This document shows, in pieces, positions 32,650 to 41,475 of a DNA stretch of 64,000 nt. The stretch is from a bacterium HR19. GTDB lineage: Bacteria; Calescibacteriota; Calescibacteriia; Calescibacteriales; Calescibacteriaceae. The notes below the pieces were generated by a model that was given only the letters and a program-made list of their open reading frames with translations, did no database searches and was not told where the DNA came from. Each line of letters opens with the position of its first letter. Position 1 is the first letter of the stretch. A program made the translations under genes and the position numbers. Location: NCBI GenBank assembly GCA_002898315.1, contig BEHV01000002.1, positions 1 through 64,000 on the forward strand. Reading direction: 5' to 3'.

Positions 32650-32677
32650 TTGGATTTTGCCAAATTCTATTTATAAA
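32650..32677 (+). promoter_or_regulatory. Putative sigma-70-like promoter of the Fur-controlled operon
   Basis: TTGGAT (32650-32655), 16 nt, TATAAA (32672-32677). The expected start site falls within the first Fur box just downstream. Position fits the only operon on this strand that follows. Confidence 0.45.
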
Positions 32678-32678
32678 T

Positions 32679-32693
32679 TGAGAATAAATATCA
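32679..32693 (+). promoter_or_regulatory. Fur box 1 upstream of porin operon
   Basis: TGAGAATAAATATCA matches the 7-1-7 Fur consensus TGATAATnATTATCA at 12 of 14 defined positions. It lies directly after the putative -10 box, where a repressor would block transcription start. Confidence 0.7.
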
Positions 32694-32705
32694 ATTAAAA
32701 ATAGG

Positions 32706-32718
32706 TTTTGATATTCTC
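32706..32718 (+). promoter_or_regulatory. Possible degenerate third Fur half-site
   Basis: TTTTGATATTCTC, read on the other strand, is GAGAATATCAAAA and repeats the GAGAAT and ATCAA halves of the flanking boxes without the central spacing. It may extend a Fur array; weak on its own. Confidence 0.3.
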
Positions 32719-32760
32719 TTTGTAAGTATAGGAGGAGAAAAATTTTTTGAAAAATGAAAA

Positions 32761-32775
32761 TGAGAATAATTATCA
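32761..32775 (+). promoter_or_regulatory. Fur box 2 upstream of porin operon
   Basis: TGAGAATAATTATCA matches the Fur consensus TGATAATnATTATCA at 13 of 14 defined positions. It lies 30 nt before the porin ATG, and the following bases (ATTAAA/G) match those after box 1, so the two boxes look like duplicated operators. Confidence 0.8.
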
Positions 32776-32805
32776 ATTAAAGTTGCAAAATGGGAGGTGA
32801 AAAAA

Positions 32806-34284
32806 ATGAAAAACCATTTCAACTCAAAATCAACGATGAAAAAAGGCAACTCGGATTCACACAGATGTCAGAACAAAAAAAGAGCAAAAATCGCTCTTTT
32901 AATAGGAGTAGCATTACTTCTATCCACACCAACTCATCTTTTTGCTTATGAAAGACAAGGAGGAATAAGCGTCGGCGCATACGGCTCAACACGACTTGAA
33001 ATAGGCAAAGACATAATCTCGGGCAAAGATAAACTCACCTTCACTCTCCGAAGAATCGTCCCCACATTCTCTGCCACAATAAAAGAAAGATTGAGATTCT
33101 ACACAGAGCTTGAGTTTGAAAGATTCGGATTACTTGAACTCCAAGAGGACTTCTCTCAAAACCCAGAAAAAGGATACTCCATACTTCACAAAACAGAGAT
33201 AGAAGGTTCTCGCGGTTCTGAAATAAAGCTGGAGCAGATGTGGGGTGAGTTTGAGATAGCAAGACCTCTCCGCTTCAGAGTCGGTGCGGTTCTTCCGCCG
33301 GTCGGAAGATTTAACATACTCCACGATGATGATATCTGGGAGCCAGCGAGAAGACCTCTTTCTGTCAGAGACCTCACAGTCCTACCTGAAAAAACTGCTT
33401 GGACAGAACTTGGATTGGGTTTTACAGGAAACTTTGACCTCGCTGATTACCTCGCAGGGTACGAGCTATATCTTGTAAATGGGGTTTCATTAGAGCATGA
33501 CCTTGAAGTGTATCTCATAAGACACAATCTTTCCGATGAGCCAGCTCATAACATGCTAAAAGTTGAAAGCGTTGTGAAACCGAGGTTCGGCAATTTCAGC
33601 GAAGACCTGAAAAGAGAAAAAGCAATTGTGGGAAGGTTCTTTTTCTCCCCAGCTCTTGGACATGAAATCGGAATATCTGGATATGCGGGAAGATATACTC
33701 CGTCTTTCCTTCCTAACGCTGTTTTGTGGTCATCTGCTCTTGATTTCAAAACTCAAATATCTCAAAACTTTGAAATAGAGGGGGAGTATGCTTTTACTCA
33801 GTTTTCTCAGCTCGGAAGAGTTGTGGATTCTCTTGCTCATAAAATTTACCATAAAGAAACCGAGGCACTCTTTTCGGGAAATGTGACGGGAGCACTTTCT
33901 ACCGAGGGAAATACCGAAGTTGAACTTGAAATGACTCTTTCTAAAAATGTTCTTGCCGATTTCAAACACGGCGGTTGGTTGCTTTTCAGATTTAAGTTCT
34001 TCCCTTCTTTCCTCAAAAATTCTCCACTTTACCTTGATGAATCTTCAAAGTTTGTTCTTTTCCTGAGACCTGAGATTGTATCTTTGCAGAATGTTATTGC
34101 TGGTGTTGAGATTGAAGATGGAAAAGCTGAGCTGAAAAAAGATAGCAAAACCGTTTTCAGATTAACTCCCGGGATAGCTTATAGACCTACCGAGACGTGG
34201 GTTTTTTCAATTTCTTATGAGCTGACCGCTACTCGTAAAGATTTGGGTAATATGGTTCTTTTTGGTTTTGCTTTTGGTTTGTAA
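32806..34284 (+). CDS. Outer-membrane porin-like beta-barrel protein, Fur-controlled
   Basis: 492 aa from ATG 32806, which has a GGGAGGTG Shine-Dalgarno 6 nt upstream; the in-frame GTG at 32797 is less likely. A long charged n-region and hydrophobic segment (about 27-44) end at a probable signal-peptidase site near HLFAYE. The mature part alternates polar and hydrophobic residues as beta strands and ends in a Phe-rich strand (LFGFAFGL), as porins do. Segments such as RLRFYTELEFE and PPVGRFNILHDDD resemble outer-membrane porins of phosphate- or iron-related type. Two Fur boxes upstream predict expression under iron limitation. It leads an operon with a flavin/ApbE protein and a cytochrome. Substrate unknown. 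Confidence 0.75.
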   Translation: MKNHFNSKSTMKKGNSDSHRCQNKKRAKIALLIGVALLLSTPTHLFAYERQGGISVGAYGSTRLEIGKDIISGKDKLTFTLRRIVPTFSATIKERLRFYTELEFERFGLLELQEDFSQNPEKGYSILHKTEIEGSRGSEIKLEQMWGEFEIARPLRFRVGAVLPPVGRFNILHDDDIWEPARRPLSVRDLTVLPEKTAWTELGLGFTGNFDLADYLAGYELYLVNGVSLEHDLEVYLIRHNLSDEPAHNMLKVESVVKPRFGNFSEDLKREKAIVGRFFFSPALGHEIGISGYAGRYTPSFLPNAVLWSSALDFKTQISQNFEIEGEYAFTQFSQLGRVVDSLAHKIYHKETEALFSGNVTGALSTEGNTEVELEMTLSKNVLADFKHGGWLLFRFKFFPSFLKNSPLYLDESSKFVLFLRPEIVSLQNVIAGVEIEDGKAELKKDSKTVFRLTPGIAYRPTETWVFSISYELTATRKDLGNMVLFGFAFGL

Positions 34285-34291
34285 GAATCTT

Positions 34292-34297
34292 TAAAAT
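34292..34297 (+). promoter_or_regulatory. Putative internal -10 box before the FMN-binding/ApbE gene
   Basis: TAAAAT ends 8 nt before the ATG at 34306, in the short gap after the porin stop. It could give an additional leaderless transcript; alternatively the gene is only read through from the porin. Confidence 0.3.
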
Positions 34298-34305
34298 AAA
34301 CTGCT

Positions 34306-35493
34306 ATGGTTGGAGTAGCAATATGTCTTTTTGTTCTGGGGAATACGCTCTTTGGGGAAAAACTTTCTGATGTCTCAAGGAGTGTGTTCCCCGCTTCTTC
34401 TTCTCTCGTATATGGAGTCGTAAATATCAGAGATTACGGCGGTTTTTTAAACTTCATGTCTCCCGCAAAACCAACTGTTGAGGAAAAATCTTTTGAGTCG
34501 GTCCTGGCTTATGATGGCGATAAAATTTTTGGACTATGTTCTGTTTTGAACGAGATAGGTAAAGAGATGCCCATTACCTTTATCGTCTGTATTTCAGAAC
34601 CCGGAAAGCTCAGAGTTGATTACATAGATGTGTTGGTTTATAGAGAGACAAGAGGAGGTGAGATAAGGTCAAAGATTTTTTTGAATCAATTCAAGGGTAA
34701 ATCTGAGCAGGACCAGATTTCTGTTGGAAAAGATATAAGAAATATAAGGGGGGCGACTTTATCTGCTTGGGCTACGACTCGTGTTGTGAGAAAAACCTTT
34801 GCTTTGTTCAAAACCCTTATTTCAGGTGGGGCAGATTTTAAATTCATCAGGCAATTTTCAAGCCAGAGCGAGCGTGAAAAATTTATCAGAAGATGTTTTT
34901 TGGTAGGGGATTCCTACTTATGTGTTGGTTTCAAAGATAAGGGTGAAAGCGATTTATTTCTTGAGGAGCTGAAAAGTTTTTCGGAGAAAATTTCAAGAGA
35001 TTTTTCTGACTTTTACTTCTTCAACAAAAACACTCCATACATCAGGGAGCTTATATCAAAGTACTCCCGTTTATCATCAGAGCTTGGCTTTTTCAACATA
35101 TGGTGGCGTGGAGATGGTAAGGCGGACCTAGGTGGAGTGTGGAAGGGCTATGTTGTTGACCTTATCAGAGATTTCTTTCAGAAGAACAACATAAAAGATT
35201 ATGAGATATCCTTCGGTTGGTCAACTTTTTACTTCTCACAAGAAAATCCGGTTGATGTCTTTGGCAAAGTCATAAATATCTCGGGAGCTATATCTGTATC
35301 TGATACTTGGTCTGGATACAGTGTTATCTTCAATCCCGTAGAGGGAAACTTTGTCAGGGAGAGGAGAAGAGTTGCTGTTATTCATCAGAGTGCGGAGTTC
35401 TCAGATTTTGCTTCAACTTTATGTGCGGTGTGGGGTGAGGATTGCGTAAAATATGTCTCACAACATGGTGGGAAGGTTATTTTCATCTATTGA
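34306..35493 (+). CDS. Secreted FMN-binding domain fused to ApbE-like flavin transferase
   Basis: 395 aa with an N-terminal signal or anchor segment (about 1-16). Residues about 90-170 match the FMN-binding domain of NqrC/NosR type: YRETRGGEI, NQFKGK and the acceptor motif GATLS with Thr151 as probable covalent FMN site (R replaces the usual S before GAT). Residues about 195-395 resemble ApbE, the FAD:protein FMN transferase: LGGVWKGYVVDL, FNPVEGNF and AEFSDFASTLCAVWG follow its conserved order, though the usual His before DPxTG is Asn. A carrier fused to its own transferase suggests self-flavinylation outside the cytoplasm. Second gene of the Fur-controlled cluster. Family calls moderate, function inferred. 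Confidence 0.65.
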   Translation: MVGVAICLFVLGNTLFGEKLSDVSRSVFPASSSLVYGVVNIRDYGGFLNFMSPAKPTVEEKSFESVLAYDGDKIFGLCSVLNEIGKEMPITFIVCISEPGKLRVDYIDVLVYRETRGGEIRSKIFLNQFKGKSEQDQISVGKDIRNIRGATLSAWATTRVVRKTFALFKTLISGGADFKFIRQFSSQSEREKFIRRCFLVGDSYLCVGFKDKGESDLFLEELKSFSEKISRDFSDFYFFNKNTPYIRELISKYSRLSSELGFFNIWWRGDGKADLGGVWKGYVVDLIRDFFQKNNIKDYEISFGWSTFYFSQENPVDVFGKVINISGAISVSDTWSGYSVIFNPVEGNFVRERRRVAVIHQSAEFSDFASTLCAVWGEDCVKYVSQHGGKVIFIY

Positions 35494-35518
35494 AAATATT
35501 GCTTTGGGGGGTGAGAAA

Positions 35519-35983
35519 ATGAGAGTTGGTCAAAAACTTGTGCTTTTTGCTCTTTTATTTTTCCCCTTCATTTTAGCGTGTTTTTGGGTTTTCGGGGTGA
35601 AGACCAAAGTTCAGGAAAAAAGAATTGTAATTTTCTTGAAAGAGGAAGAAAAGGAGCTCGTTCTGAGGGAGATGAGGGAACTCCTGCGTTCAGTTAATAT
35701 GATACTTTACGGAATTTCAACGGGAGATTACGATTTGGCTCACCGCTATGCTAAATCATCTGGAATGGATATGGTAGAAAAATTTTCAGCGGTAGAAAAA
35801 ACACTTCTTCTCAAACTTCCAGATGAGTTCAAAAAATTGGGATTTGCTACTCATAAGGGTTTTGATGAAGTTGCGGAATTAATAAAGTCCAGAGAAAACC
35901 AAAAAATATTGAGCGCTCTTGCGGAGCTGACATCAAAATGTGTTGCCTGCCACGATATTTATAGCATTCAAGCTGAAAAATAG
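35519..35983 (+). CDS. Membrane-anchored cytochrome c'-like monohaem protein
   Basis: 154 aa from ATG 35519, with GGGGGGTGAG just upstream; an upstream extension overlapping the previous gene is rejected. An N-terminal hydrophobic segment (about 6-28) anchors it in the membrane. The remainder is helical and ends with a single C-type haem site CVACH near the C-terminus. That position, after a four-helix-like region, is typical of cytochrome c'/c556. Its place between the flavin protein and a His-containing membrane protein suggests electron transfer in the periplasm. The axial ligand other than the CxxCH His is not evident. Confidence 0.7.
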   Translation: MRVGQKLVLFALLFFPFILACFWVFGVKTKVQEKRIVIFLKEEEKELVLREMRELLRSVNMILYGISTGDYDLAHRYAKSSGMDMVEKFSAVEKTLLLKLPDEFKKLGFATHKGFDEVAELIKSRENQKILSALAELTSKCVACHDIYSIQAEK

Positions 35984-36029
35984 AAAAACCAAAACACCGG
36001 AATAAAAAATTCAGGAGAGGTTTTTAACT

Positions 36030-36500
36030 ATGTTTCCGAGAATAAAAGATTTTCCCGCAGAGTTGAAGTTGCCAGTATTTTTTTTCTCCCTATACTGCTT
36101 ATTTGGACCTTTTGTGAATCTTGCTTATCATATCAGCAAGAAAGGTGTTGGTATTGATAATGCTTTGAGGTATTACTTTGGGAGCGAGGCGGAGATGATT
36201 CCCCCTCAATCTCTTGTATCTTTCCTTGAAGTTATGCATTTTCACACCTGGGCTCAGGCATCTGTGATTTTCATTCTTTCTTCTCTTCTTGGTCTTTCTT
36301 CTGCTGGAAGAAAAATCAAAATGTTTTTAATTCTTTCTCTTTTCGTTTCGTCTATGGGTCATATATTTTTGCCGTCTCTTATGAGATTCATAAGTGCGAA
36401 GCTGATTTATCTTCTATTTTTAGATACCGTCTTTTTTTCTGCTTCTATAATTTTTTCTTCTCTCATTTTGCTCAAAGATGTTTTTTCAAAGAAGGAGTGA
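36030..36500 (+). CDS. Four-TM membrane protein with conserved-looking histidines
   Basis: 156 aa with four hydrophobic segments (about 13-36, 72-94, 100-118 and 123-150). Histidines lie at or within helix ends: LAYH (about 33), VMHFHTW (about 70) and SMGHIF (about 111), compatible with b-haem or metal ligation. I recall short membrane proteins with similar YH and HFH patterns beside FMN-binding proteins in other proteobacteria, but cannot verify this. It is last in the Fur-controlled cluster, 46 nt after the cytochrome, with AGGAGAGG upstream. It could pass electrons from the quinone pool to the cytochrome or flavin; this is inference. Confidence 0.5.
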   Translation: MFPRIKDFPAELKLPVFFFSLYCLFGPFVNLAYHISKKGVGIDNALRYYFGSEAEMIPPQSLVSFLEVMHFHTWAQASVIFILSSLLGLSSAGRKIKMFLILSLFVSSMGHIFLPSLMRFISAKLIYLLFLDTVFFSASIIFSSLILLKDVFSKKE

Positions 36501-39480: not shown

Positions 39481-39930
39481 GTGAATAAGGAAGGGTTGGG
39501 GGCGTTTTTATTTTGGCGGTCGGTTTTCTCTCCGCTTCTCATCTCTTTACTTGCGATAACCATTTCACTTGGTTCAGGTTGTGAGAGAAAAAAGCAGGAA
39601 ACAGGTGTTTTACCACCATCATCTGAAAATAAAGAGTATCAAGGAGAGGGGGTTGCTGTTCGTTATGAGCTACCGCATCAGACGGCATTGAAAAACATTT
39701 CAGAAGGTGGGAACACATCAGATCTTATCACAGCGAGGATACTCACAGGAAGATACAGGGCTGAACTTATTACGGGAAGAATAATAACGGGGAGGTCTCC
39801 GATTTTTGTGAGAGTATCCACGGAGCAGAATCAGGATTCAGCAGAGTACTGGGGAGAATTGAAGTTTGAAGAGAAAGAAGGGAAAATTTTTGCATATTTT
39901 AAGTTGCCGTTTTCAGAGGGTGAGTGGTAG
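39481..39930 (+). pseudogene. Lipoprotein, N-terminal part of a gene split by an in-frame amber codon
   Basis: 149 aa from GTG 39481, preceded by GGGAGGAAAA. The signal peptide ends in lipobox GSGC (Cys34). A Gly/Thr/Arg-rich stretch with repeated LTGRY/ITGR motifs leads into a beta domain (FVRVSTEQ, YFKLPFSEGEW). It stops at TAG 39928-39930 and the same frame continues at once with LEITFYAKG, which completes the beta strand pattern. It therefore looks like the start of one 664-codon gene covering 39481-41475. Real nonsense mutation, phase-variable stop, readthrough or sequencing error cannot be told apart here. Confidence 0.6.
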
Positions 39931-41475
39931 TTGGAGATAACCTTCTATGCAAAAGGCATAACTATAATAGAAGCAAAAGGGAAATTTCCGGGTTCCACAA
40001 CAGATAAGCTTGATATAACTCAATCTATGGAAGAGGAGTTAGTTGATACAGATGGAGACATGATACCAAATTTAGCGGAGATACTGAGCGGTTCGGACCC
40101 TGTGAAGAAAGATGAGTGCGAGAAGAAAGTATTTTATGAAGACGGAGACGGAGATGGATATGGGGAAGCGATAACGCTTGTGGCTTGCTCAAAACCGAAA
40201 GGATATGCAGATAAAGGCGGAGATTGTAATGAAGGGAATGCATCAATTTATCCAGGTGCTCCTTTGAACTGCAACAACTCACAAGATAATGACTGTGATG
40301 GGCAAATAGATGAAGTGAAAACAACATTTTACAGGGATGCAGATGGGGATGGATATGGTTCTCCTTCTTCAACAACTCAAGCTTGTTCTCAACCTTCTGG
40401 CTATGTATCAAATTCTGGTGATTGCAACGATTCTAACCGATGGATTAATCCCGGTGTCAAAGAAATATGTGATGATAGTATAGATAATAATTGTAATAGT
40501 CAAACAGATGAGTTCCCGTGTATAGTGCAACAAAAGGTTTCTGGAGGGGATTGGCATACTTGTGCGATAAAATCAGATGGTTCTCTTTGGTGCTGGGGAT
40601 GGAATTTTTATGGACAGCTTGGGTTGAGAGATACCATAGATAGGAATTACCCAGTGTGGGTGAGTGATATAACAGATGTAGTTCAGGTGATTGCGGGGTC
40701 GGAACATACCTGTGCTGTAAAATCAGATAAATCACTCTGGTGCTGGGGATGGAATTTTTATGGACAGCTTGGGTTGAGAGATACCGCGAATAGGAATTAC
40801 CCAGTGTGGGTGAGTGATATAACAGATGTAGTTCAGGTGGTTGCAGGGGCGGAACATACCTGTGCTGTAAAATCAGATGGTTCTTTGTGGTGTTGGGGAA
40901 AAAATGCTAATGGACAGCTTGGAGTAGGAGATACTACAAATAGGACTTCCCCAGTGCAGGTGAGTGGTATAGCGAATGTAGTTCGTGTTGGTGCAGGAAA
41001 TTATCATACTTGTGCAATAAAATCAGATGGTTCTCTTTGGTGCTGGGGATGGAATAATTTTGGAGCTCTTGGATTAGGAGATACCACAGATAGATATTAC
41101 CCAGCATGGGTGAGCGGTATAACGAATGTATTTCGTGTGGGTGGGGGAGATTCTTACACCTGTGCGATAAAATCAGATAATTCTCTCTGGTGTTGGGGAT
41201 ATAATTTTTATGGTCAGCTCGGTTTGGGAGATACCATAGATAGGTATTCACCTACACAGGTAAGTAGTTCATGGGGAGCTCCGAAAATATCTGTTTCTGT
41301 TCCTGATAAGTTTGAGAAGAGCGAAGAATTTTACGGCGGAGAAAATAGATGGTATGGATGTAATGCTGTATCGGTTCTTTCAGAATCAGCAATTTTTGCC
41401 CTGCCGTATATTTACTACTTACTGCGAAGAAGAATAAGAAGAAAAAATACAAGAAAACCTTTCGCCTTGAAATAA
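39931..41475 (+). CDS. MopE/RCC1-repeat surface protein with C-terminal sorting tail (downstream part of split gene)
   Basis: 514 codons in frame with the upstream lipoprotein fragment, directly after its TAG; if translated separately the first ATG is 40027. In order: end of a beta domain; a Ca-binding-type DTDGDMIPN; two MopE repeats (FYEDGDGDGYG, GDCNEG, NCNNSQDNDCDG; then FYRDADGDGYG, GDCNDS, DDSIDNNCNS); five RCC1 repeats of 50 aa (HTCAIKSDGSLWCWG); and a C-terminal Gly-Cys, hydrophobic helix (about 480-500) and LLRRRIRRK cluster like a MYXO-CTERM anchor. Probably exposed on the cell surface. The full-length protein would have both an N-terminal lipobox and a C-terminal anchor, which is odd. 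Confidence 0.7.
   Translation: MEITFYAKGITIIEAKGKFPGSTTDKLDITQSMEEELVDTDGDMIPNLAEILSGSDPVKKDECEKKVFYEDGDGDGYGEAITLVACSKPKGYADKGGDCNEGNASIYPGAPLNCNNSQDNDCDGQIDEVKTTFYRDADGDGYGSPSSTTQACSQPSGYVSNSGDCNDSNRWINPGVKEICDDSIDNNCNSQTDEFPCIVQQKVSGGDWHTCAIKSDGSLWCWGWNFYGQLGLRDTIDRNYPVWVSDITDVVQVIAGSEHTCAVKSDKSLWCWGWNFYGQLGLRDTANRNYPVWVSDITDVVQVVAGAEHTCAVKSDGSLWCWGKNANGQLGVGDTTNRTSPVQVSGIANVVRVGAGNYHTCAIKSDGSLWCWGWNNFGALGLGDTTDRYYPAWVSGITNVFRVGGGDSYTCAIKSDNSLWCWGYNFYGQLGLGDTIDRYSPTQVSSSWGAPKISVSVPDKFEKSEEFYGGENRWYGCNAVSVLSESAIFALPYIYYLLRRRIRRKNTRKPFALK
40530..41270 (+). repeat. Five tandem 150-bp RCC1-coding repeats
   Basis: A 150-bp unit recurs with near-identical stretches: the segment beginning TGCTGGGGATGGAATTTTTA at 40591 recurs at 40741, exactly 150 bp later. 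Later copies are more diverged. Each unit codes one RCC1 blade. High identity between the first two units suggests recent duplication or conversion. Confidence 0.8.

Follow-up and report, generated by a model that had tools for sequence, protein, structure and literature searches.

How iron crosses two membranes in bacteria that lack TonB receptors is poorly known. An operon in the genome of bacterium HR19 raises the question of whether a porin, a flavoprotein and a small membrane protein could together accomplish this by reducing iron on its way in. The operon lies within the window, by which we mean the whole stretch of 64,000 nucleotides that was analysed (contig BEHV01000002.1, positions 1 to 64,000). 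The original prediction described it as a Fur-controlled set of four genes that could reduce ferric iron, or an iron-bound compound, in the periplasm.

Fur boxes and probable iron control

Four co-directional genes on the forward strand, separated by gaps of 21, 25 and 46 bp, encode a porin, an FMN_bind-ApbE fusion, a c-haem protein and a protein with four transmembrane helices (4-TM), and direct reading of the sequence returns them in the order that was predicted. The porin gene (32806..34284) specifies an outer-membrane beta-barrel protein of 492 amino acids with an N-terminal signal sequence. No strong Pfam match was found for it, a weak OMP match being the only one, and its assignment also draws on relatives, which form a recognisable family common to related modules across phyla.

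Direct reading likewise places two Fur boxes ahead of the porin gene, whose start is at 32806, with the positions and scores first reported for them. Box 1, TGAGAATAAATATCA (32679..32693), agrees with TGATAATNATTATCA at 12 of 14 positions and is kept in the congener G002, while box 2, TGAGAATAATTATCA (32761..32775), agrees at 13 of 14 and lies 30 bp before the porin start. The 19-mer Fur consensus GATAATGATAATCATTATC, with at most three mismatches allowed, occurs once in the 64 kb, at this promoter, against an expected 0.02. A genome-wide search with at most two mismatches gave 51 matches, both strands counted, versus 6 for a reversed control; the best placed of the 51 are the two boxes at this promoter, where top rank is partly by construction, the pattern having been written from the window's own box. 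All 12 of the other Fur-like sites whose context was inspected lie inside open reading frames.

Conservation extends these observations beyond the host. Boxes scoring 16-17 of 19 precede the porin in all five genomes of the family, and four of the five carry two. Across a wider set of loci, a scan of the 310-bp stretch at the first gene of each module found a site of at least 14/19 in 30 of 109 module loci, whereas 16 of 690 further genes in those loci had one (Fisher p 4e-17, a value that overstates the enrichment because the loci are related and not phylogenetically independent). About 70% of the 109 loci scanned have no clear canonical box.

The neighbours of the module point in the same direction. 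FeoB adjoins it in five loci (L022, L064, L067, L082 and L097), DtxR/IdeR-type repressor genes lie beside it in three, and plausible Fur genes are present in 12. Pfam confirmed all of the five Fur and four FeoB neighbours on which it was run. A FeoB label in L194 was rejected as a YchF-like GTPase, and Fur labels in L080, L122, L123, L136 and L138 were rejected because they look like frame artefacts; these are left out of the counts given here, while raw tallies of Fur neighbours include some of them. The host genome has one Fur gene. With this gene and with boxes at the promoter, the operon belongs by sequence to a predicted Fur regulon and appears to be Fur-repressed and made when iron is scarce, and the predicted iron control gains support from conserved boxes within the family, from their enrichment before the module in other phyla and from adjoining Fur, DtxR and FeoB genes in some genomes.

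The conserved unit and its distribution

Each of the four family relatives of the host has the 4-TM protein, at 54-88% identity, and a profile search recovered its family in 41 of the 386 genomes of a broad sample. Within 5 kb of the 4-TM gene in these 41 loci, FMN_bind occurs in 33, a porin in 28 and ApbE in 25; all three partners are present in 19 loci and none in five. The association is also seen in 80 loci from named genomes (FMN_bind in 78, porin in 69, ApbE in 49), whose records are labelled Deltaproteobacteria, Binatota, Rokubacteria, Myxococcota, Methylococcaceae and others. Throughout the recurring set, ApbE is either fused or separate. By comparison, 19 control stretches of the host genome held no porin, FMN_bind, ApbE or 4-TM gene, and a search of plasmids for the 4-TM family found none. 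Taken together, the neighbour counts in relatives and the empty control stretches point to a recurring unit made up of porin, FMN_bind, ApbE and 4-TM.

The cytochrome falls outside this unit. Its gene (35519..35983, forward strand) encodes a membrane-anchored monohaem c-type protein of 154 amino acids with a CVACH motif and one N-terminal transmembrane helix. It is c'-like, with a Pfam cytochrome c' match of 20.2 bits that lies below the cut-off of 26.5, and cytochrome c assembly proteins are present in the host genome. Only two of the five family genomes, the host and its congener G002, have it in the operon, and it was rejected as a core part on that count; it is a lineage-specific accessory. 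The four families of the original prediction are accordingly not the unit: on a neighbourhood search porin, FMN_bind and 4-TM recur, the cytochrome proves to be a local extra, and ApbE belongs to the recurring set.

Several methanotroph loci have di-haem peroxidase-like genes, with two CxxCH motifs, between porin and FMN_bind (L155 4425-5750, L162 4718-6151 and L187 4314-5525). Their products are proteins different from the cytochrome.

The original prediction named as its contrary case relatives in which the genes are scattered and lack Fur boxes. In the family, boxes are kept before the porin in every genome; the 4-TM gene, on the other hand, stands apart from the other module genes in G002 and on another contig in G004, in both cases without a Fur box of its own. 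The 4-TM gene of G003 diverges from the porin, and the Fur-box region is common to both.

Two further features were observed in passing. In G002, the cytochrome and 4-TM genes are separated by some 13 kb of CRISPR-Cas genes of type III (Cmr/RAMP; L099 6313-13001 and L017 1-6835), and a stretch resembling the 3′ end of the cytochrome gene is left upstream of the 4-TM gene. Elsewhere in the window, at 39481-41475 on the forward strand, an in-frame TAG (39928-39930) splits an apparent single gene into a 149-aa lipoprotein-like start and, in the same frame, 514 aa of MopE/RCC1-like repeats.

The flavoprotein and its putative membrane partner

The second gene of the operon (34306..35493, forward strand) encodes an exported fusion of 395 amino acids. 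Its ApbE half scores 31.6 bits in Pfam, above the cut-off of 25.6, while its FMN_bind half, at 17.9 against a cut-off of 22, falls below on its own. A profile built from an alignment of seven members identifies both halves: the N-terminal half matches RnfG (9eri_G; E 1.4e-6, profile positions 13-180) and the C-terminal half matches ApbE structures (E 3e-9). A further match to MftR is spurious. The fusion contains NIRGATLS, a flavinylation-type motif that includes the threonine, and G149, A150, T151 and S153 (alignment numbering) are invariant in all seven fusions aligned. The RnfG match and this threonine motif identify the FMN_bind domain, and the claim that the operon encodes a flavin electron carrier is supported.

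The ApbE half is divergent. It keeps the KGxxxD and D..ST motifs and departs from standard ApbE at the GGD and H..DP positions; relative to separate ApbEs, the conserved stretches are DLGGVWKGYVVD and the AEFSDFAST region. No second ApbE was found in the host genome, which is 82% complete. FMN is predicted to be attached covalently to the FMN_bind half.

The last gene (36030..36500, forward strand) encodes the 4-TM protein, 156 amino acids long, with an HxH pair (H70, H72), E67 and R119. It belongs to an unnamed family and has no match in Pfam or NCBIfam, and Pfam searches with 58 family members gave no PepSY, MsrQ, NapH, DsbD, NQR/RNF or DUF4405 match. Of 43 family sequences, 42 have H70 and 42 have H72, with G51, K97 and R119 next in conservation. 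The sole HxH exceptions come from a tandem duplication in a single genome (L084 4016-4960), whose two copies retain one histidine apiece, as though a pair of subunits shared the site.

A fold of a Methylobacter member made with the family alignment (pLDDT 92) is a four-helix bundle in which a short helix separates the first long helix from the second; a single-sequence fold of the protein in the window (pLDDT 58) was set aside. With the Methylobacter model Foldseek reached E 0.7 at best, and helical bundles of a generic kind gave middling Z scores; this amounts to no match and is no evidence of a new fold. No relative was found in the PDB by sequence or by fold.

The positive-inside rule predicts a periplasmic position for the HxH, E67, Y49-G51 and R119. 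The family-wide histidines are one HxH pair near one end of helix 2 and do not form bis-histidine pairs across the membrane, so the sequence gives no support to a transmembrane b-haem wire. The two, set two residues apart on one helix, are unlikely to ligate the same haem, and as no other histidine is conserved, a membrane-spanning haem wire like that of PepSY, MsrQ or DUF4405 is unlikely. The HxH region may instead form a quinol site, a metal site or a haem site at a dimer interface.

The metal site would suit a protein that acts as an inner-membrane iron permease or periplasmic-face metal receptor, its HxH, Glu and Arg binding the Fe2+ made by the flavoprotein, with flavin electrons coming from elsewhere. 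The HxH, the one near-invariant feature (each histidine in 42/43), is metal-like, the family conserves no histidine pairs within the membrane from which a haem wire could be built, and no FeoB was found in the host genome (82% complete). Four helices in 156 amino acids are few for a permease, however, and such a permease would be redundant in the five relatives with FeoB directly beside the 4-TM gene. We regard this explanation as unlikely.

A possible route for iron and its relation to known systems

The reading that we prefer, with a probability of about 0.58 to which the reduction and uptake of iron contribute most and the quinol step less, is a Fur-repressed, TonB-independent module in which electrons would pass from quinol through the 4-TM protein and covalent FMN to Fe3+, with entry by the porin and exit by a ferrous importer. 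When iron is low, Fur would leave the two boxes and the operon would be made. The porin would admit iron through the outer membrane as free Fe2+ or small Fe3+ chelates, and the ApbE half would attach FMN covalently to the FMN_bind half. The periplasmic-face site of the 4-TM protein (HxH, Glu, Arg) might then pass electrons from the membrane quinol pool to FMN, which would reduce Fe3+ to Fe2+ in the periplasm. Fe2+ would cross the inner membrane by way of a ferrous importer, which would be FeoB in several relatives and possibly a ZIP protein here, where an Nramp match is sub-threshold; in the host genus the c-haem protein could serve as an added electron relay.

This reading is favoured by the family-wide boxes and their enrichment, by the FeoB, DtxR and Fur neighbours, by the single Fur gene of the host, by the recurrence of FMN_bind, porin and ApbE beside the 4-TM gene, by the RnfG and ApbE matches and by a search of the whole host genome in which no TonB-dependent receptor was found (82% complete; the absence is provisional), the original prediction having noted none in the cluster. 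A published precedent also ties flavinylation to the reduction and uptake of iron (PMC8238504). Against it, FeoB was not found in the host (82% complete; weak GTPase matches alone, in frames of at most 527 aa), and the ZIP protein is unlinked to the module. Other points against it are the divergent ApbE half, the separate 4-TM genes of G002 and G004, the approximately 70% of loci without a clear canonical box, and a 4-TM protein whose haem, quinone and flavin sites are hypothetical and whose fold search returned nothing significant.

A broader proposal, which we offer tentatively, is that the 4-TM HxH family might form a new membrane electron-donor class, a quinol:flavoprotein oxidoreductase at the periplasmic face with no transmembrane haem wire, defining a widespread TonB-independent, porin-fed route of ferric reduction in two-membrane bacteria.

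Fur control would fit equally an iron-sparing electron set, in which envelope carriers based on haem or Fe-S give way to flavin ones when iron is scarce and iron uptake plays no part; flavin/cytochrome interchange has been proposed (PMC8238504). That the host operon itself adds a haem protein, and that porin and FeoB neighbours are left unexplained, make this account improbable. A redox system for respiration or stress, such as the detoxification of peroxide or metals, that is merely under Fur or a relative of the Fur family such as PerR or Zur is likewise improbable. In its favour, Fur and PerR boxes are alike, the Fur-family genes are assigned at family level, subtype aside, and di-haem peroxidase-like genes lie inside some methanotroph modules; against it, FeoB and DtxR/IdeR-type neighbours point to iron, and the peroxidase-like genes are confined to few loci.

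Set beside known systems, the preferred iron-reducing module differs from TonB/siderophore uptake in the receptor missing from the host genome (82% complete). Shewanella FeoE is a porin for ferrous iron, and the module resembles it in the idea of such a porin. The fusion halves match RnfG and ApbE structures, and unlike RnfG/NqrC-type proteins they are joined in one exported protein outside an Rnf or Nqr operon. DUF4405 membrane cytochromes have six transmembrane helices and four central histidines (PMC11334425); the 4-TM protein shares with DUF4405/FezC proteins conserved histidines and a tie to flavinylation or iron, but has four helices and one HxH near one end.

The closest comparison is with flavinylation-associated iron clusters. 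That flavinylated proteins take part in reducing and assimilating iron is an established proposal (PMC8238504, PMC11334425). Those described include PepSY-like, MsrQ-like with VIT1 and P19-associated clusters, and membrane partners of flavinylated proteins comprise PepSY, MsrQ, NapH, DsbD and NQR/RNF classes (PMC8238504). Like these clusters, the module brings together ApbE and an exported FMN_bind domain under Fur boxes, with FeoB linked in relatives though not in the host, and periplasmic iron reduction is proposed for both. Unlike them, it has a dedicated porin and a membrane partner that matches none of the listed classes, nor DUF4405, in Pfam and has no NCBIfam match; the words porin and FeoB are absent from the text of PMC8238504, and no description of a porin-FMN_bind-ApbE-4-TM set was found in the literature searched (subscription papers and supplementary tables lay outside its scope). 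The comparison suggests that flavin-linked iron reduction is the known element here and that the 4-TM partner and the porin composition are new. This Fur-linked set, which recurs with its unnamed membrane family in about one-tenth of the bacterial genomes sampled, among them methanotrophs, Deltaproteobacteria, Binatota and Myxococcota, offers a concrete and testable candidate. Present in many unrelated bacteria, it may be a common, undescribed route by which iron is reduced and brought in where TonB receptors are lacking, and it would give flavinylated proteins another kind of membrane partner.
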